Notes under the pieces: generated by a model | Told to the model about the DNA's origin: nothing | Databases searched by the model: none | The model's input: the letters and a program-made list of their open reading frames with translations, nothing else | Translations under genes and position numbers: made by a program | Part shown: positions 11,192 to 20,805 of the stretch, piece by piece | How the letters are laid out: each line of letters begins with the position of its first letter | Numbering within the stretch: the first letter of the stretch is position 1 | Source: Erysipelothrix aquatica | GTDB lineage: Bacteria; Bacillota_I; Bacilli_A; Erysipelotrichales; Erysipelotrichaceae | Assembly (NCBI RefSeq): GCF_009828775.2 | Contig: NZ_WTSY02000001.1 | Span: 1-64,000, forward strand | Direction of reading: 5' to 3' | DNA: 64,000 nt

Positions 11192-12379
11192 TTATTTGAG
11201 TAATGAAAGTACAGAGTGGCCATTTGCCGTTGGTTCTGCGCCGAAGTTGTCGGCTACTGTTGCACCAAGATCCGCAAACGTTTCATTTTTTGGAAGCATT
11301 CCACTACCCTCAAATGATGGTGAGTAGTAAAGTACTGGAACTTCTTCACGTGTATGATCGGTTCCATGATGAATTGGGTCGTTACCATGATCAGCAGTGA
11401 TGATGAGTAAATCATCTTCTTTAATCAATGGTAACAATTGACCAAGTTCCTTATCGAACGTTTCGAGTGCTTCACCGTATCCAATTGGATTACGACGGTG
11501 TCCGTACAATGCATCGAAATCTACTAAGTTAACAAATAAGAATCCGTTAAAATCAACATCTTTAACAATACGAATGGTTTCTTCCATTCCATGAGAATTG
11601 CTCTTAGTGCGGAATGACTCTGTAATACCTTCATTATCGAAAATATCCACAATTTTTCCAACACTGATTACATCTTTTCCAATTGCTTTCAAGGAATCCA
11701 GTGCTGTCTTTCCAAATGGTTTTAGCGCATAATCATGGCGGTTGGATGTACGTGCGAATTCACCTTTACGAGGTCCAACAAATGGTCTTGCGATGACACG
11801 CCCTACTTTCCATTCGTCTTTCATGGTTAATTCACGAGCAATCTCGCATACACGATACAACTCATCAAGTCCAAAAATTTCTTCGTGAGCAGCAATTTGG
11901 AGTACGGAATCTGCTGAAGTATAAACAATCATTTTTTTTGTAGCCATGTGTTCTTCACCGAGTTCATCGAGAATCTCTGTTCCACTTGCTGACTTATTAC
12001 CAATGATTCCATAACCAGTACGTGCTTCAAGTTCATCCAATAGTTCTTTAGGAAAACCAGTTTCGGTAAATGTAATGAATGGATTTTGAATATTGAGTCC
12101 CATCATTTCCCAGTGACCGGTCATTGTATCTTTCCCGTTTGAAGCTTCAATCATTTTTGTATAGTAAGCTGCAGGACGATCAACAGGGTTTACACCTTGA
12201 ATTTTATGTAAATTTCCTAGGCCTAGTTTTTCCATATTTGGCATGTTAAGGCCATTCATACGCTCAGCGATATGACCAAGTGTATCGGAACCTAAGTCAC
12301 CAAATTTTTCAGCATCATGAGCAGCACCTGCTCCGACTGAATCCATAACTATGGTAATTATACGATTATATTTCTTCAT
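11192..12379 (-). CDS. deoB: Phosphopentomutase
   Basis: This 395-residue alkaline-phosphatase-superfamily enzyme interconverts ribose/deoxyribose 1-phosphate and 5-phosphate in nucleoside salvage. The family motifs are in place: MDSVGAG at the N-terminus, SDTLGH, the [10 protein letters not shown] segment around the phosphorylated threonine, and the C-terminal TADHGNDP metal site followed by HTREEVP. The ATG at 12379 is chosen over the longer frame because AGGAGGCA lies 7 bp upstream of it. It overlaps the end of xerD by 14 bp. An xerD(ripX)-drm order is also found in Bacillus, so this is old synteny. Confidence 0.96.
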
Positions 12380-13280
12380 CTGTATTGCCTCCTTTATTAG
12401 CAAATGTACCTACCAAAAACTGATCATACTCTTTCTTGAGTGCATCTTTTGATACGTGCGTATAAATTTGAGTTGTGCGGATATCCTGGTGTCCCAAAAG
12501 TTCTTGAATCACCCGTAAATCTACACCAACATCAAGAATGCTTGTAGCAAATGCATGCCTTAAAGTATGGGCGGAAATAGCAGTACTTAAATTCATTTCC
12601 TTACTTCTTAATTTTATCATATTGTGAATGTATTGTCGTGTAACTTGGTTACCTTTTGAACCAACAAATATATATTCACTAGAGCTTACAAGCCACACTG
12701 GCCTAACTAACTGAATATAAGTATCCAATGCTTCTTGCACATCACGAGTTATCGGAATAACACGTTGCTTGTTCCCCTTACCTACGATTCTTAGAAGTTT
12801 TTCTTGTGGATAGTAATTGCTAAAGGTTAAGTTGGTACACTCACTGACTCGAAGACCACAGCGATACATGATTATAAGTAATGCATAGTCAAATGTATCT
12901 TTTGGTGTCTTTCGGGCAAAGGATAACAACGTCACAATTGCCTCATTCTCGGCGATGTATGGTAGCCTTTGGCCCTGGTTTTTTAGGTTCATATATTGTG
13001 TGGGGTCATGTTGTGTCACATTCGTTTTAACAAGATACTGATGAAATTGGCGAATGCTTACTACTTTGTGCTGAAGCGTTGATGGTGCGTAACGAGACTG
13101 GATGGATGCCATATAGGATGTTATATGTCTATATTCAATCATTTCTGGTGTTTGAATGTCTTGGGTCTCAAGAAATTCTATATAATCACGTACATCGGTG
13201 AGATACGATTTAACGGTTAATTCGGATTTGGGATCAATAAATTGAATGAAATGATTGAAGTCATTGAGATATTTTTTCAT
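12366..13280 (-). CDS. xerD: Tyrosine recombinase XerD-like
   Basis: This 304-residue tyrosine recombinase has an N-terminal SAM-like core-binding domain (residues 1-90) and a catalytic domain. The active-site residues are visible: R in CGLRVSE, K in GKGNKQR, HxxR in HTLRHAFA, H in LGHQDI and the nucleophile in TQIYTHV. With a partner Xer it would resolve chromosome dimers at dif. Length and the housekeeping context (dinB upstream, deoB downstream) favour Xer over a mobile-element integrase. An AGGAGGGG ribosome site precedes the ATG. Confidence 0.88.
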
Positions 13281-13296
13281 ATCATCCCCTCCTCTT

Positions 13297-14454
13297 TTAT
13301 TTTTTTATAAGTGTGCTGGTTCGTTTAAATGCATCAATGTTTAGTTCTTTGTTCAAGCGGGAAATAATATCATTAATTGTTGGTTCTTTCAAATCATCAA
13401 AGAGATTTAGTTGTTCTATCTTGTCTTCAAGCGTTACGAGGTTTGACATCGATACGGATATGAAAGTAACACCATCCATGCTATCAAACTCTTCATACAG
13501 ATCCATCACACGTTCATAAATTAAATGCCTGTCATCTGTATAGTTCTCAAGGGTTAAAGATCGTGCAGCAGTCTTGTAATCAGCCATCCGAATTGCAAAT
13601 GTTAGTGTTTTCCCTACTAAATCATAGCTTTTCATGCGAAGTGTCATTTGTTCAATTTCATGACGAATCGCATGTTGAATTTCATCCAAGTCAACCATTG
13701 GTGTTGTAAAGGTTTTTGATTGTCCGACTGACTTTGCAGAGGTATCAGTTTCGATATTCGAATTATCACGACCATTTGCCTTTTCCACGAAGCTTTGAGC
13801 ATTATTCCCGAGAATGTGGCGAATCGAATTTGGATCTGTTTGCGCCAAATCCTTGATGGTATGAATTCCATAAGCAATTAACTTCGGTACAGTTTTCTTT
13901 CCTATTCCATGCATCTCATTGATTGGCAATGGCCACAAGAACTTATCAATTTCACGAATTCGCAGCACTGTAATACCGTTGGGTTTCTGCATATCACTAG
14001 CCATTTTCGCTAAAAATTTATTTGGAGCAACCCCAATAGAAATCGGTAGTTTGAGTTCTTTCAAAACACGTTGCTGAATTTCGACCGCAAGATCCAGTGG
14101 TTTGGGATAATTCCTAATGACATCCGTAACATCAACGTAACACTCATCAATACTTGCTTGTTGTAATTTTGTTGAATAACTTCGTATTATATCCATAAAA
14201 CGTCGTGACAGGTCATTATACAAGTCAAAATCAATCTCCACGACCACTAAGTCTTGGCATAAACGCTTTGCGTGACTTAATGGCATTGCAGATTGAATTC
14301 CGAATTGTCGTGCTTCATAGGAAGCAGTTGTAATTACGGATCCACGGTGGTTTGAACAAACCACCACAGGTTTTCCAATCAAGGATGGATCGGTAATAAC
14401 ATGTGCACTAGCAAAAAATGCATTGATATCAATATGAAAAATTACATTGGCCAT
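13297..14454 (-). CDS. dinB: DNA polymerase IV (Y family)
   Basis: This 385-residue Y-family translesion polymerase has the catalytic acidic residues in HIDINAFF (residues 7-14) and SIDECYVDVTD (near 103-113). The GIGKKTV helix-hairpin-helix follows the palm and the little-finger domain occupies the C-terminus. It copies past damaged bases and interacts with the sliding clamp. The C-terminal QLNLFD is a plausible clamp-binding peptide (QxxLF). Its start overlaps the last base of recN, so the two repair genes are translationally coupled. Confidence 0.95.
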   Translation of the reverse strand: MANVIFHIDINAFFASAHVITDPSLIGKPVVVCSNHRGSVITTASYEARQFGIQSAMPLSHAKRLCQDLVVVEIDFDLYNDLSRRFMDIIRSYSTKLQQASIDECYVDVTDVIRNYPKPLDLAVEIQQRVLKELKLPISIGVAPNKFLAKMASDMQKPNGITVLRIREIDKFLWPLPINEMHGIGKKTVPKLIAYGIHTIKDLAQTDPNSIRHILGNNAQSFVEKANGRDNSNIETDTSAKSVGQSKTFTTPMVDLDEIQHAIRHEIEQMTLRMKSYDLVGKTLTFAIRMADYKTAARSLTLENYTDDRHLIYERVMDLYEEFDSMDGVTFISVSMSNLVTLEDKIEQLNLFDDLKEPTINDIISRLNKELNIDAFKRTSTLIKK

Positions 14455-16094
14455 TAAAACGATTGTCCTTCTTTTAATAATTCTTGGGCTGCAAGCAGTG
14501 AAGCGTTGGATATGGTTCCACTCATGATTAACGAAAGTTGTTCCACTTGCTCTTCAGGCGTTAGCTGATCAATGGATGTCATAGTAGCCTCATCTTCTTG
14601 CGATTTGGATATTTTGTAATGTTGGTGCGCATGCGCAGCCACTGAGCTCAAGTGTGTAATTGTCAAAACTTGTGCGTCTTTTGAAAGGTCCTTCATTTTT
14701 TGTCCGATTCGCATTCCAACACGCCCTGAAACTCCAGTATCAATTTCATCAAAAACGATTGTATCAATATGTTGAACACGACTGAAAATGACTTTAAGAC
14801 CGAGCATCAGGCGTGACAACTCCCCGCCACTCGCGACTTTGTCGAGTGGGGCTAAATCCTCACCTTTATTCATGCTGACATAGAATTGTACACTATCATG
14901 GCCACTTTGATTTAATTTTACACTCGAAAATTTAACTTCAAAACGTGCATGTTCGAGCATCAGGTCATGCAATTGAACTTCCACAGCCTTCTCCAACTCA
15001 ACTGCAGCAGCGCGACGTTTTACACTTAATGACTCGGCCGCTGCAGTCGCTGCTTCGAGTGCAACATCACGAATATTCTGAAAGTCTTCACGTATTTCAT
15101 CAAAGTGTTTTGCGCGATGAATCAATGCGTCATAGGTTTCCATGATCGCTAAAATACCCTCAACATCGCCAAATTTACGGAAGTATTGTTGATACTGGTA
15201 CATGCGTGATTGATATGCATCAAATTCATATGCATCGAATTGCATTTCATGACTGAGCGCTTGTACGGTATCTCTGACATCTTCGAGCAAAAAATATGCT
15301 TCGCGATATTTTTCACCTAGCGTCTCGTTATTAAGTTTTTCATATAGCGATAGACCATCATAAAAACGCGCAAGTACATCATTTTGTTTGAATATCTCCA
15401 GCATATCACTATAAATAGTTTGGTATTGTTCGAAATTTGACATCGTTTCAAGGTTCTCAGACAAACTTGTATAGTCGTCGACACTTGGTTTGAATTGCTC
15501 CAGTTCACGTAACATTGCTTCTGCACGCTCAATTTCATCTGGAGAAATATCACTGGATTCAAACGTTTCCAAATCACGTTGAGCTTCTTTATACGTTCGA
15601 TACAGATGATTATATGTTTCAAGAGACTCTTGCATTGAAGCAAATCGATCAAGTAAGTTTAAGTGTTGTTTACTGTTAAGCAAACTTTGAGTTTCATGTT
15701 GAGAGTGAATATCAATGAGATATCCTGCTAATTCACGTAATAGTGAAGCTGTTACAATTCGATGATTGATACGAGCATTACTCTTCCCGTCACGATTCAT
15801 ATCACGGGAAATGATTATTGGATCACTCGGATCGACATCAAATCCTATTTCCTCAAGATAAGGAATTACTGGATGATTATCAGCGACCGCAAAAATCACT
15901 TCTACACGAGAAACATTATCATACTTTCCAACAATACTTGCACTGCTTCGCTGCCCAAATGCAAAATTTAAAGCATCGACAAGCATGGATTTCCCTGATC
16001 CAGTTTCACCCGTAAACACGTTGAAATTATCAGATAAGTCTACTGAGATATCTTGAATGAGGATATAATTTTTAATAGCAAGATGTTGGAGCAT
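14454..16094 (-). CDS. recN: DNA repair protein RecN
   Basis: This 546-residue SMC-like ATPase acts in double-strand-break repair. The Walker A GETGSGKSM lies near residues 31-39. Then comes a long coiled-coil middle (about residues 150-340). The C-terminal half holds the ABC signature SGGELSRLML and Walker B VFDEIDTGVSG. Head domains pair to bridge DNA. It sits downstream of the dxs/ispA cluster as in Bacillus, but the tlyA and argR genes usually between dxs and recN are absent. The DXS-like gene ends 2 bp upstream. Confidence 0.96.
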   Translation of the reverse strand: MLQHLAIKNYILIQDISVDLSDNFNVFTGETGSGKSMLVDALNFAFGQRSSASIVGKYDNVSRVEVIFAVADNHPVIPYLEEIGFDVDPSDPIIISRDMNRDGKSNARINHRIVTASLLRELAGYLIDIHSQHETQSLLNSKQHLNLLDRFASMQESLETYNHLYRTYKEAQRDLETFESSDISPDEIERAEAMLRELEQFKPSVDDYTSLSENLETMSNFEQYQTIYSDMLEIFKQNDVLARFYDGLSLYEKLNNETLGEKYREAYFLLEDVRDTVQALSHEMQFDAYEFDAYQSRMYQYQQYFRKFGDVEGILAIMETYDALIHRAKHFDEIREDFQNIRDVALEAATAAAESLSVKRRAAAVELEKAVEVQLHDLMLEHARFEVKFSSVKLNQSGHDSVQFYVSMNKGEDLAPLDKVASGGELSRLMLGLKVIFSRVQHIDTIVFDEIDTGVSGRVGMRIGQKMKDLSKDAQVLTITHLSSVAAHAHQHYKISKSQEDEATMTSIDQLTPEEQVEQLSLIMSGTISNASLLAAQELLKEGQSF

Positions 16095-16096
16095 AG

Positions 16097-17869
16097 TTAT
16101 TTCCCTTCTATTAGTAATCGAATAGCATCATCAATGTGTAAGTGATGTGCACGTTTGAGTTCTTTAGATCCAGTTGTTAGCTCGAGACCTCTTAAATCAA
16201 CACACTGAATCTCTAAATCCAGTTTTTGTTCATAGCAATAACGTAAAATATGATGATATAACTCGTTGTGAATATCTTCTATATTATAAATAAGAATTTT
16301 GTGATGAAACTCCGCAATCTTTTGAAGCAATTCGGAATCAACACTTGATAAATTTCGTGTATTGACGACACCAATATTTAGCGAGTTTGCTTCTATTTTT
16401 TTGATAAAATCTTGGATTGAGGTTCCAAATGTTAAGATGACCCCTTCGCTAGAAGCATCAAATGGGTGTGCTACTTCCCAAATGGCATCCAAATCAAGTA
16501 ATTGAGGCATGTGTTTTTCTGCATCGTTTTGATATCGAATAGCATTAATTCCAGGTTTTTGTAAGATTTTGTTCAATAAACCACTGGCCTCGTTAAGGTC
16601 TTTAGGCATATAAACGTTTGCGAGGTGTTCTAAAGCCCCAATATCGTAAACGCCTTGTTCAAAACGGTTACCTGTAGAATTTAGTCCCGTACCTCGAATA
16701 AGGAGAGTCAACGATAATTCAGAAAGTTTGAATTGATTGTTGATGTGACTTTGTACCTCTAACACACGTTGTGAGGATAGTGCCACTACGACACGATATC
16801 CCATCCGCACATATCCAGCAGCCAATGTAACCAATGATTCAGTACTACCAGATGTTACAACATAATTATTTGGGTATGCTTCTGCGAACTCACTAAAGTA
16901 GTCTCCAAAATTAAGTGCGTCTACAAGTAACATCAATTTAGGATCACGAATCCCTACAAGTGTAGAGTCAAAAATCTCATGATAGGTTTTATAATTGTCA
17001 GGTGTTGCATCATCCAGTTTAAAATTGGGGAATTCCAACTTACGACGTTGTTTTTTACGAAGACGCGTTTGAACATGAATTAGATTTGGGCCCTTCATTG
17101 TTTTCGCCATCTCAAAAACACGAACTAAATCACTGATGTTTTGGCCATCAATTGGACCCTGATAATCAATCCCAAATTGCGTAAAGATTGTAGGTTCAAG
17201 GACTGTCTCTTTCAAAGCATCTCGTACACGTACCAACGTGTTTAAAATAGGACGTGAAATTGGATTAGAATCCAAAACAGTCTTCATATCTTTTTTAAAA
17301 CCGGTATATGTTTTACTAATTCGAATACTTTTTACAAATGTATTCATTGACGTATAGTGACGCAGTAACGATTGTTGTTCATCAATCATCACAATAATGA
17401 TATTCGGTTTTTCTTTGCTGATTTGAACCAACGTTTCATAGGTTAGACCATAATTTAGCGCATGGTCATCGATTACAACGATTGTATGGTTTTGCGGAGC
17501 ATCCAGTGCATACGCAAGTCCGACACCAAGCCCCTCTCCAATATCACCGCCTGTATACGCATCAAAAGGATTGGTAGCGTCCAAAGTTAATGGAATATTG
17601 GTACGTAATGCAAGATCCTGTGCACGACCCGTCAAAATTTTGTGGGTCATGACTTGTTGACCGCCATCAAAAACAACACGGTCTTTGGTCAGGTCAAACA
17701 CCTTATGCAAAGCAAGTGTTGTCTCGAGGACATTAATATTTTTTATGATTGTTTCGACATCAAATCGTGTCTCTTGAGCTAAAAATGTTGCGATTTCATC
17801 AGTTAGTGCATCAAGCTCTGCTGGTTTAAGATCACGAATTGCATTCGAATTCTTAAATTGATTAAACAA
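16097..17869 (-). CDS. Degenerate 1-deoxy-D-xylulose-5-phosphate synthase-like protein
   Basis: This 590-residue protein follows the DXS architecture, with HKILTGR at 76-82, GPIDGQ near 238-243 and VTLAAG near 347-352. Nearly every functional site differs from E. coli DXS aligned by eye. His49 is T40, His121 is Y105, the thiamine-diphosphate GDG is DDH (134-136) and NDN is IDE (162-164). Tyr392 and Arg398 read S and E, Asp427 reads R, His431 reads E404 and Arg478 reads N. Only a glutamate in GSTES (E344) may match Glu370. The start is TTG with AGGAG overlapping the ispA stop. It holds the classical dxs position but probably is not an active DXS. Confidence 0.8.
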   Translation of the reverse strand: MFNQFKNSNAIRDLKPAELDALTDEIATFLAQETRFDVETIIKNINVLETTLALHKVFDLTKDRVVFDGGQQVMTHKILTGRAQDLALRTNIPLTLDATNPFDAYTGGDIGEGLGVGLAYALDAPQNHTIVVIDDHALNYGLTYETLVQISKEKPNIIIVMIDEQQSLLRHYTSMNTFVKSIRISKTYTGFKKDMKTVLDSNPISRPILNTLVRVRDALKETVLEPTIFTQFGIDYQGPIDGQNISDLVRVFEMAKTMKGPNLIHVQTRLRKKQRRKLEFPNFKLDDATPDNYKTYHEIFDSTLVGIRDPKLMLLVDALNFGDYFSEFAEAYPNNYVVTSGSTESLVTLAAGYVRMGYRVVVALSSQRVLEVQSHINNQFKLSELSLTLLIRGTGLNSTGNRFEQGVYDIGALEHLANVYMPKDLNEASGLLNKILQKPGINAIRYQNDAEKHMPQLLDLDAIWEVAHPFDASSEGVILTFGTSIQDFIKKIEANSLNIGVVNTRNLSSVDSELLQKIAEFHHKILIYNIEDIHNELYHHILRYCYEQKLDLEIQCVDLRGLELTTGSKELKRAHHLHIDDAIRLLIEGK

Positions 17870-17878
17870 GACTATCTC

Positions 17879-18718
17879 CTAAAGATCGCGTGCGATCATT
17901 TCTTCAATGAGTTTCTGTAGTTCGGTGCCGTTTAAATCAAGACGATCTAGCAGCACTTTAATTTCTTTAAAGAGTCCTTCAGTTGCATTTTGAGCACGTT
18001 TTAAGCCCAATAACGTTACGATAGTACTCTTTTCACGCTCGCCATCACTAAGATGGCTCTTGCCAATTTCATCACTAGTCTTCGTTACTTCTAAAATATC
18101 ATCTTGATATTGGAATGCAACGCCAAGTTTTAAGCCCAGTGTCCGTGCAGTATCTTGTAAGTCATCTTTTCCTGCAATAACAGCAGCCATTTCTAATGCC
18201 GCAGCAAACAAACATCCTGTTTTCATTTCATAGCATTGGATAAGTGCTTCGACTGAATCAATGTTATCAACAATATCGAGCTCTTGTCCTAGTATCATGC
18301 CGTGTGCACCCGCATTACGCGCTAAAATTTCAACGGTTTTCATTTGAACCATCGCACTCACCGTGTCAGCTTTCGCAAGCGTGGTGAAAGCTGCAGTAAG
18401 TAAGCCATCTCCAGCTAAAATCGCCATCCCCTCACCATACACTTTATGATTCGTGGGTTTGAAACGGCGGAAATCGTCGTTATCCATGGCAGGTAGATCA
18501 TCATGAACCAACGAATACGTATGAACCATTTCAAGAGCACACGCCTGATTTAATCCGTGATCTAAATCGATACCATAATCAGCAAGTAGACTCAACAGAA
18601 GGCGTGGTCGAACGCGCTTACCCCCACTCAACAATGAGTAGGACATTGCATCTTGAACTGTCGTATTCCCATATTCTTGGACTAGCTCTCGTAAACGACT
18701 TTCGATCATTAAATTCAT
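17879..18718 (-). CDS. ispA: Farnesyl/geranyl diphosphate synthase
   Basis: This 279-residue all-alpha trans-prenyltransferase condenses isopentenyl diphosphate with allylic diphosphates. Both aspartate-rich motifs are intact: HDDLPAMDND (first, DDxxxxD type with two intervening residues more than in long-chain enzymes, typical of short-chain bacterial enzymes) and FQYQDDILEV (second). SGGKRVRP near residue 33 binds isopentenyl diphosphate. The ATG at 18718 follows AAGGAG by 6 bp; a longer frame would overlap xseB. Its intact state contrasts with the degenerate DXS-like gene immediately downstream. Confidence 0.95.
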   Translation of the reverse strand: MNLMIESRLRELVQEYGNTTVQDAMSYSLLSGGKRVRPRLLLSLLADYGIDLDHGLNQACALEMVHTYSLVHDDLPAMDNDDFRRFKPTNHKVYGEGMAILAGDGLLTAAFTTLAKADTVSAMVQMKTVEILARNAGAHGMILGQELDIVDNIDSVEALIQCYEMKTGCLFAAALEMAAVIAGKDDLQDTARTLGLKLGVAFQYQDDILEVTKTSDEIGKSHLSDGEREKSTIVTLLGLKRAQNATEGLFKEIKVLLDRLDLNGTELQKLIEEMIARDL

Positions 18719-18719
18719 G

Positions 18720-18920
18720 TTATTCTCCTTGATGCTTCTGAACAAGCTCTTTTACTGTTGTTTCATATTGGGTTAAACGGTTTTGGCACTGTTTTGATAA
18801 TTTTAACCCCTCATCAAACAATGCTATTGCATTGTCTAATGACAAATCGTCCTTTTCAAGCAAAGTTGCGATCTCTGCCAATCGTTTCATTGCTGCTTCA
18901 AAATTAAACGTATCACTCAT
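18720..18920 (-). CDS. xseB: Exodeoxyribonuclease VII small subunit
   Basis: This 66-residue all-helical protein has the usual length and the FEAAMKRLAEIATLLEKDD-like start, followed by LDNAIALFDEGLKLSKQC, the family core. It binds several copies to XseA to form the single-strand exonuclease VII. Its ATG overlaps the xseA stop (ATGA), giving coupled translation. Confidence 0.95.
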   Translation of the reverse strand: MSDTFNFEAAMKRLAEIATLLEKDDLSLDNAIALFDEGLKLSKQCQNRLTQYETTVKELVQKHQGE

Positions 18921-20404
18921 AATGGGTCCTTTCCACTCACTGTAGCCTGAATTATGCCATCTTTTACTGCGATAGTTAACGCATCGCCTTCAGCCACATT
19001 TCCTATGGACGTAATGGGCTCAGAATTCATGCTTACACGAGCAAATCCTTTTGCATAAACTGCTTCTAGTTTCGCAACCGGATTATTGTTGCTTATTGTT
19101 TTAATTATATCGCCAAACTGACTGGCTTTCAAGTTGATTAATCGGTCAATACGGCGTTTTAAAGCCACATCAGTGTCTTCTATAAATGTGTAAAATTGTG
19201 GTATTTTTCGTTGGATTCCGCCAATCGAAAACATTAAACTTTGCTCAAAGTGTTTTCGTTGGACATCTTCTTGACGGATGTGTTGTTCGACGTTGTAGTA
19301 GAATTCATTTTCAAAATTCTTGAGTTGCCCTTTGTTTTCTTGAAATTTATGATTCAACGCTTTTTCATAACCGTGAATTTGTTGTTGGAGTGTTTTTTTA
19401 ATCGTGTCAAACCGATAAATTTGATGTGTCACTTTGTTCTGATGATAATCCAGATATTGTTGTTTCGTTTCAATATAACGTAAAGGATCTTGCAAATAGC
19501 GTTGTGACATAATCGTTTGATAAACTTGCTGATTTTGTCTTAGTTTGTTGCGAACTGACTTATAGTATGCATTTTTATAATCTCTTAAATTTTCGAGTAA
19601 ATCCTTGGTGTTGGGTGTAGCATGAACTGCAGCAGCTGTCGGTGTCGCAGCCCGATAATCTGAAACATAATCTACCAAGGTGACATCACTTTCATGCCCT
19701 ACTCCTGAAATAATCGGTGTTTTTGAGTTATAAACTGCTTCCACCACTTTAGGTTCATTAAATGACCACAAATCTTCAATTGAACCACCACCACGAGCAA
19801 GAATTATAGTGTCAAGATTTAATGTGTTTGCATAATCAATCTGCTTAACGATACTATCCACCGCATATTCCCCTTGAACAAACGCATAGAGTACATGAAC
19901 CTGAGCAACAGGCCATCGTTCGTGTAGTGTTCGCGCAATATCCGCGGCAGCAGCACTTCCTTCACCAACGATAACCGCAAGATTATGCGGATACTTCGGT
20001 ATCGGTTTTTTATGCTCCACAGCAAAATATCCCTTCTCTAAGAATTCTTTCTTTAACGCTTCAAATTGAATAAATAAATCACCCAACCCATCCAAGTTCA
20101 TGCGTTCAACATAGATTTGGACTGATCCTGTCGATTCAAAGACATCAATTGATCCATGAATGACTACTTTATCGCCATCTTTAGGTTTAAATTTAACCAT
20201 ACTAGATTTGCTACGAAACATAACACACGAAACTCTACTTTTGGCGTCCTTCAAAGAAAAATAAAAATGCCCACTGTGGTGAGCTTTAAAGTTTGAAAGC
20301 TCTCCTACCAATGCGACATTCTTAAAAGACGGATGTTTCTGAATAACACCTTTGAGTTCATTAACAAATTCTGAAACCGTAATGACCTTCTCTTTTGGCA
20401 TCAT
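18917..20404 (-). CDS. xseA: Exodeoxyribonuclease VII large subunit
   Basis: This 495-residue catalytic subunit has an N-terminal OB fold (residues about 8-105, with VGELSNFKAHHSGHFYFSL-type strands). The nuclease domain carries GEGSAAAADI, ARGGGSIEDLW and GVGHESDVTL, and a long coiled-coil arm (about 270-420) follows. The TPTAAA motif follows the nuclease core. It degrades single-stranded DNA to oligonucleotides. It overlaps nusB by 4 bp; the folD gene found between nusB and xseA in Bacillus is missing. Two adjacent ATG codons (20404 and 20401) are possible starts. Confidence 0.95.
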   Translation of the reverse strand: MMPKEKVITVSEFVNELKGVIQKHPSFKNVALVGELSNFKAHHSGHFYFSLKDAKSRVSCVMFRSKSSMVKFKPKDGDKVVIHGSIDVFESTGSVQIYVERMNLDGLGDLFIQFEALKKEFLEKGYFAVEHKKPIPKYPHNLAVIVGEGSAAAADIARTLHERWPVAQVHVLYAFVQGEYAVDSIVKQIDYANTLNLDTIILARGGGSIEDLWSFNEPKVVEAVYNSKTPIISGVGHESDVTLVDYVSDYRAATPTAAAVHATPNTKDLLENLRDYKNAYYKSVRNKLRQNQQVYQTIMSQRYLQDPLRYIETKQQYLDYHQNKVTHQIYRFDTIKKTLQQQIHGYEKALNHKFQENKGQLKNFENEFYYNVEQHIRQEDVQRKHFEQSLMFSIGGIQRKIPQFYTFIEDTDVALKRRIDRLINLKASQFGDIIKTISNNNPVAKLEAVYAKGFARVSMNSEPITSIGNVAEGDALTIAVKDGIIQATVSGKDPL

Positions 20405-20805
20405 ATTGCGTCTAATACTCCGTTTATAAATTTGTATGAGTCTTGGTCCGCAAATTCTTTCGCTAAACGCACAGCCTCATCTAAGACAACAACTTTTGCT
20501 TGAATCCCGAGTTCTAACTCAGCTGCAGCAATAAGCATAATCGCTTGTTCGATATAACCAAGACGATCAAACTTCCAGTTATTTAAGTATTGATTTAAAG
20601 CTAAGCCATAAATCTCTTTTCGCGCAACAGCACGATGAATGACTTCAAGCATTTCTTCACCAAACTCAAATTTGGGAATAAAGTCACTTACATTTGAAAT
20701 AAAGGCGTTATCTTCCAATACTTCCTCGATTGCTTGATCACGTACTAAGTGAATATACACTGCACGCATTGCATCTTGTCTCTCAACACTACGACTCTTC
20801 GTCAT
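20401..20805 (-). CDS. nusB: Transcription antitermination protein NusB
   Basis: This 134-residue all-helical protein is of typical NusB length, with the arginine-rich N-terminus (SRSVERQDAMRAVY) that contacts boxA RNA and the C-terminal VVLDEAVRLAKEF helix conserved in the family. With NusE it binds boxA of rRNA leaders. A strong GGAGG ribosome site lies upstream. It follows a terminator placed after the Asp23-family gene, so partial readthrough or a separate promoter supplies it. Confidence 0.93.
   Translation of the reverse strand: MTKSRSVERQDAMRAVYIHLVRDQAIEEVLEDNAFISNVSDFIPKFEFGEEMLEVIHRAVARKEIYGLALNQYLNNWKFDRLGYIEQAIMLIAAAELELGIQAKVVVLDEAVRLAKEFADQDSYKFINGVLDAI

Follow-up and report, generated by a model that had tools for sequence, protein, structure and literature searches.

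A degenerate DXS-like protein at the dxs locus of Erysipelothrix, a probable pseudoenzyme, and its counterparts in related lineages

Introduction

DXS controls flux through the MEP pathway and is a drug target, and DXP is also a precursor for thiamine and pyridoxal synthesis. Pseudoenzymes are known as a class. The closest described system to the protein considered here, termed DXSL, is canonical DXS (TIGR00204, NF003933; PDB 2o1s, 2o1x, 6ouv, 8a45), with which it shares full-length homology, a three-domain fold and a place adjacent to ispA. It differs from canonical DXS in the replacement of nearly all ThDP, catalytic and substrate-phosphate residues, in a shortened active-site loop (284-300), in scores of about half of the family cut-offs or less, and in a host without the MEP pathway. 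Divergent relatives of DXS with a length similar to that of DXSL include the PRK12315 DXS-like subfamily (NF008968) and the "DXPS-like" enzyme 9kpq. DXSL scores only 131.5 bits against the curated NF008968 cut-off of 510 bits and, unlike 9kpq, which is described as ThDP-dependent, carries no ThDP motif. Split transketolases (6yaj) have the transketolase fold in common with the C-terminal half of DXSL, but they consist of two separate chains and their sequence match is weak (E 0.003).

Species that possess the MEP pathway but no Dxs represent an open problem, with 181 candidates (PMC10663253); the string "Erysipel" is absent from the main text of that paper. In the literature searched, with most subscription papers outside its coverage, no report of a DXS pseudoenzyme and none on isoprenoids, mevalonate or deoxyxylulose in Erysipelothrix was found. 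As far as could be found, a recurrent pseudoenzyme derived from DXS is not known.

The locus and its transcription unit

The window, meaning the whole 64,000-nucleotide stretch of DNA analyzed, belongs to a 2.15 Mb genome that is 99.7% complete. Its closest named relative is Erysipelothrix anatis (protein identity 97%), and Erysipelothrix inopinata, E. tonsillarum and E. urinaevulpis are also in the group. DXSL is encoded on the reverse strand at 16097-17869 as a protein of 590 amino acids, with a TTG start, a TAA stop and no internal stops. An AGGAG element precedes the start codon and overlaps the stop codon of ispA, the farnesyl diphosphate synthase gene (17879-18745), which lies 9 bases upstream in the same operon. 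On the other side, recN (14454-16094) starts 2 bases past the DXSL stop. The operon context, all on the reverse strand, further includes nusB (20401-20805), xseA (18917-20404) and an xseB-like open reading frame (18720-18920) that overlaps both xseA and ispA, while dinB, xerD and deoB (11192-14454) are found downstream of recN. A terminator-like stem follows deoB at 11188-11169, and the series nusB-xseA-xseB-ispA-DXSL-recN-dinB-xerD-deoB looks like a single operon. Apparent splits in genes of this operon were seen for recN (L105:3115-4767, G184), xerD (L048, G007) and deoB (L038, G003), and may be sequencing errors or pseudogenes.

Homology and fold

The initial annotation, made from the sequence, described an uninterrupted frame of 590 residues with the layout of DXS, a description borne out by full-length matches and an end-to-end fold. 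The Pfam model DXP_synthase_N matches DXSL at 6.6e-51, the NCBIfam dxs models cover residues 2-559, and profile-profile comparison with hhalign aligns DXSL to DXS over 580 columns with a probability of 100%. The scores nevertheless remain below the family cut-offs, at 211 bits against the TIGR00204 equivalog cut-off of 466 and at 219 bits against 395 for NF003933. The AlphaFold model has a mean pLDDT of 78 and a pTM of 0.55, a deeper alignment having raised the latter only from 0.53, and in segments 166-194, 211-227 and 270-288 pLDDT falls below 50, so the shape there is not interpretable. The model aligns end to end with solved DXS structures (Z 32, about 505 residues). Judging from model and sequence, DXSL thus has the full-length homology and the fold of DXS (EC 2.2.1.7). 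Because of this end-to-end alignment, the model indicates no alternative register that would bring the lost motifs back.

The active site

Catalytic positions were read from alignments made in MAFFT against DXS of E. coli and of the family, and an independent hhalign alignment agrees. With E. coli DXS numbering given first, the replacements include His49>Thr40, His122>Asp109, Tyr392>Ser365, Arg398>Glu371, Asp427>Gly400, His431>Glu404 and Arg478>Asn448. All seven had been listed in the initial annotation and all are real, except that the residue called His121 there is E. coli His122, position 121 being Gly. The list can be extended by His80>Gln71, Asn181>Glu164, His299>Lys273, Glu370>Thr343 and Arg420>Gly. 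Consequently, none of the catalytic and substrate residues His49, His299, Glu370, Tyr392, Arg398, Arg420, Asp427, His431 and Arg478 is present in DXSL.

Both halves of the ThDP/Mg motif had likewise been described as lost. This holds for the motifs as such, GDG being replaced by DDH and NDN by IDE, but not for every ligand: of the GDG/NDN positions, only Asp152 and Asp180 are retained, and the former, a metal ligand, survives as Asp135. Ser184 is also kept (as Ser167). The remodeled region comprises several features on the reverse strand. Thr40, which replaces the catalytic and ThDP-associated His49 (17750-17752), is fixed in 11 members of the genus when the two most divergent, G008 and G011, are set aside. 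Asp134-Asp135-His136 stands in place of GDG (17462-17470). At residues 162-172 (17354-17386), IDEQQSLLRHY replaces NDNEMSISENV and forms a new motif conserved in the genus, with Glu164 in place of the metal ligand Asn181. Finally, the basic segment TRLRKKQRRKLEFPNFK (268-284; 17018-17068) replaces and shortens the KGKGY...AE...H299 active-site loop, and its end (L278, P281, K284) is conserved across Erysipelothrix. Inside the genus, the residues at the His80 and His122 positions are free to change. DXSL is almost certainly not a DXP synthase, and its residues make a ThDP enzyme of any kind appear implausible.

Selection and constraint within Erysipelothrix

DXSL is intact at the same place in all 13 Erysipelothrix genomes, over a range of identity from 97% down to 31%. 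A second match in G008 (C53) was considered as a second DXSL and rejected, as it consists of two adjacent frames of split-transketolase size. For four pairs of genomes, dN/dS of DXSL is 0.039, 0.049, 0.052 and 0.062, ratios that are rough in two of the four pairs, where synonymous divergence exceeds 1. Values for IspA (0.034-0.067) are similar, and those for RecN (0.076-0.10) and XseA (0.068-0.145) are higher. Within DXSL, domain I is the most constrained (0.011-0.029) and domain III evolves fastest (0.11-0.17). The annotation had proposed a retained new role, with dN/dS across relatives as a check against a dying gene; the low ratios of 0.04-0.06 and the 13 intact frames support that role, and the dying-gene outcome was not seen. 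DXSL very probably has a selected function. With its catalytic residues lost, its fold retained and purifying selection acting on it, it shows features expected of a pseudoenzyme.

For the comparison of pocket retention, 126 columns near-invariant in canonical DXS were used together with our list of pocket residues in DXS structures. The Mg and diphosphate ligands on this list are confirmed by published work (PMC10504544). Of the canonical-invariant residues, Erysipelothrix keeps 14% in the pocket versus 40% elsewhere, and preferential loss of the pocket has the same direction in every degenerate lineage. Mean conservation within the genus is 0.82 for the domain I pocket columns, 0.51 for the domain II-III pocket and 0.65 for the whole protein, and Thr40, Asp135, Glu164, Ser167, Leu168 and Leu169 are fixed in 11 Erysipelothrix genomes. 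From these patterns, the diphosphate and metal side of DXSL appears to have been rebuilt and then frozen, and the substrate side to be drifting.

Isoprenoid pathway of the host

The downstream MEP enzymes that would accompany a functional DXS are missing: Dxr is absent from 13 of 13 Erysipelothrix genomes, and IspG was looked for in the genome of the window and not found. Of the 13 genomes, 12 encode HMG-CoA reductase, the exception being G011, a draft that is 97% complete. In the genome of the window, mevalonate kinase, diphosphomevalonate decarboxylase, phosphomevalonate kinase and type 2 IPP isomerase are encoded in one cluster; these four enzymes and HMG-CoA reductase exceed the curated cut-offs, and a match to HMG-CoA synthase is also found. 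Consequently, with the clustered genes, the reductase and the synthase present and Dxr and IspG absent, the mevalonate pathway is complete in this genome and IPP is made from mevalonate, as the annotation had predicted. Elsewhere, two drafts that are 98-99% complete (G028, G076) lack matches to DXS, Dxr and HMG-CoA reductase alike and have no evident route to IPP.

Degenerate DXS in other lineages

The survey covered 245 genomes of the order and was followed by closer inspection of selected loci. Low dxs scores had drawn attention to many genomes that were then set aside, as their matches were only split transketolases or fragments at contig edges. Genera g3, g10, g46 and g70 also have DXS-like proteins in degenerate form, about 435-620 residues long, so that at least four lineages in the family besides Erysipelothrix are affected, and in all lineages the protein lies between ispA and recN. 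The metabolic setting differs among them. In g10, G021 has HMG-CoA reductase and a degenerate DXS and lacks Dxr; G139, of the same genus, encodes Dxr, and its DXS at this position is canonical. In g46, a canonical DXS adjoining dxr occurs alongside a degenerate DXS between ispA and recN in four genomes; in a fifth, the copy is very degenerate. The degenerate copy is thus kept in g46 although DXP synthase activity is already supplied by the canonical enzyme. The canonical g46 gene directly follows dxr in a frr-uppS-cdsA-dxr run (L117, L118, L119, L123, L133), relocated in comparison with most other family members.

In several g3 genomes, Dxr is present and the degenerate copy is the only DXS found. 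In the survey as a whole, this arrangement was observed at L102, L103, L104, L106 and L108 (G190, G247, G165, G239, G127) and likewise at L086 (G154) and L105 (G184), and the catalytic residues of Dxr are intact in the genomes checked (G190, G165, G239, G184). Like the species of the open problem described above (PMC10663253), the g3 relatives have Dxr without a canonical DXS; what sets them apart is that they still carry their original dxs, although in a degenerate state. In G184, a 686-residue frame and frames resembling, by eye, aldolase and triosephosphate isomerase directly follow dxr (L122:6636-10251) and are possibly relevant to DXP supply. In g40, DXS-like matches are only of split-transketolase size in five genomes (G060 and G122, at loci L124-L126; G223, G226, G233), and Dxr is present in both genomes examined (G060, G122).

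Retention of a degenerate DXS is not obligatory, because in four family genomes that encode HMG-CoA reductase but lack Dxr (G061, G075, G157, G189) a DXS-like protein was searched for and none was detected, copies more decayed than those found being of a kind that would escape the survey. In two g3 genomes, the canonical DXS gene is not located at ispA, and no degenerate copy was detected. Outside Erysipelothrix, the degenerate protein outpaces its neighbors in evolution, with dN/dS of 0.117 compared with 0.056-0.10 for the pair G165/G234, so constraint is weaker in those lineages.

Independent origins

In the DXS protein tree, G021 is placed apart from Erysipelothrix, but on long branches. 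A tree of the operon genes xseA, ispA and recN was used in its place. In this tree, built from a single operon with a short search, the degenerate state corresponds to five changes, at least four of them forced by well-supported branches, although changes on a tree cannot alone tell gain from loss. Each degenerate lineage except Erysipelothrix is nearer to the canonical DXS of its relatives than to other degenerate lineages; DXSL of Erysipelothrix is at about equal distance to all. Given this nearness and the changes on the operon tree, independent degeneration in place is the simplest reading.

Possible functions of DXSL

On balance, DXSL is best read as a DXS pseudoenzyme retained for a non-catalytic function. 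That it is non-catalytic is probable; that it acts with IspA or through prenyl diphosphates is a more tentative proposal. Erysipelothrix dropped the MEP pathway for mevalonate, and dxs stayed in the nusB-xseA-xseB-ispA-dxs-recN operon. The gene has since been stripped of the residues that serve ThDP and substrate chemistry and is maintained by purifying selection focused on domain I, where the domain I half of the cleft (Asp135, Glu164, Ser167, Leu168, Leu169) appears to have been re-tooled and conserved. The RHY motif and the basic 268-284 segment follow this putative rebuilt half-site, and the substrate half in domain II would be left to drift. Most likely, the rebuilt half-site would bind a diphosphate ligand (IPP, DMAPP or FPP) or a partner protein, and DXSL would act on IspA, encoded by the adjoining gene, to sense prenyl synthesis or to provide a scaffold for it.

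We favor a mechanism in which DXSL would pair with IspA and bind a diphosphate in the half-site that survives. IPP and DMAPP compete with ThDP for binding to DXS (PMC4993486), and the diphosphate of ThDP is directed at domain I (PMC10504544). In Erysipelothrix, this diphosphate side is the part that is conserved. A weak supporting hint for a role linked to IspA comes from IspA itself: all 13 Erysipelothrix proteins have Phe or His for the Gly of the RRGK(P) motif (RRFK or RRHR), and nearly all other IspA proteins of the family, from hosts of degenerate DXS or not, have Gly at that position. A structural or regulatory role beside ispA, as suggested in the annotation, would fit the constant position of the gene, but the ispA-dxs-recN neighborhood is old and may persist for other reasons.

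Several other explanations compete with this one. The protein could be a neofunctionalised enzyme in which the domain I cleft carries out other chemistry on an unspecified substrate, perhaps metal-dependent through Asp135 and Glu164 and independent of ThDP. The fixed pocket replacements (Thr40, Glu164, Leu168, Leu278) and the strong constraint on domain I resemble a rebuilt site rather than a blank surface, and the wider DXPS-like group contains 9kpq, with a solved structure and described as a separate ThDP-dependent enzyme. However, domain II, half of the old site, drifts, and the other lineages, which also lost the pocket, did not acquire matching replacements. This explanation appears unlikely. 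Slightly less likely still is that DXSL is a non-catalytic partner of a protein other than IspA, such as RecN or another neighbor, or has a general structural role. The gaps to recN (2 bases) and to ispA (9 bases) are similarly short, which would suit such a partner, and both neighbors are constant; the same gene order is nevertheless found in genomes with an ordinary DXS, and we know of no connection between DXS and DNA repair.

A functioning DXP synthase with unusual residues, serving thiamine or pyridoxal synthesis, would accommodate the relatives in which intact Dxr occurs with a degenerate-type protein alone. It is very improbable for DXSL, in which His49, Asn181, Glu370, Tyr392, Arg398, Arg420, Asp427, His431 and the His299 loop are all absent and the His80 and His122 positions are free to vary in the genus. 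The short gaps, and gene overlaps in other lineages, could also suggest a spacer for translational coupling, whose open frame would serve nothing but the translation of recN. Such a spacer predicts dN/dS near 1, against the observed 0.04-0.06, with 0.01-0.03 in domain I, which refutes it for Erysipelothrix and leaves it scarcely credible. A dying gene, to which the lost catalytic residues and the fast evolution of domain III might point, has the lowest probability of all: across 13 genomes, the most divergent at 31% identity, the match contains no stop, and dN/dS is as low as that of IspA. The low ratios and the open frames together rule out both explanations.

Implications

The putative retention of DXSL for a non-catalytic function, together with its counterparts, raises the tentative possibility of a hidden second function of DXS, non-catalytic and linked to the ispA-recN operon. 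The active site would have been shed once its chemistry was no longer needed, on at least four independent occasions within a single family. Release from catalysis would have come through the switch to mevalonate or through a second DXS elsewhere, with the resident copy kept for that function. A strongly conserved, genus-wide DXS free of catalytic residues, recurring in relatives with and without the MEP pathway, points to such a non-catalytic activity of DXS, of which no account was found in the literature searched. In these proteins, nature would already have separated this activity from catalysis, making direct tests feasible. The relatives with intact Dxr and no usable DXS, in turn, bear on how some bacteria make DXP without Dxs.
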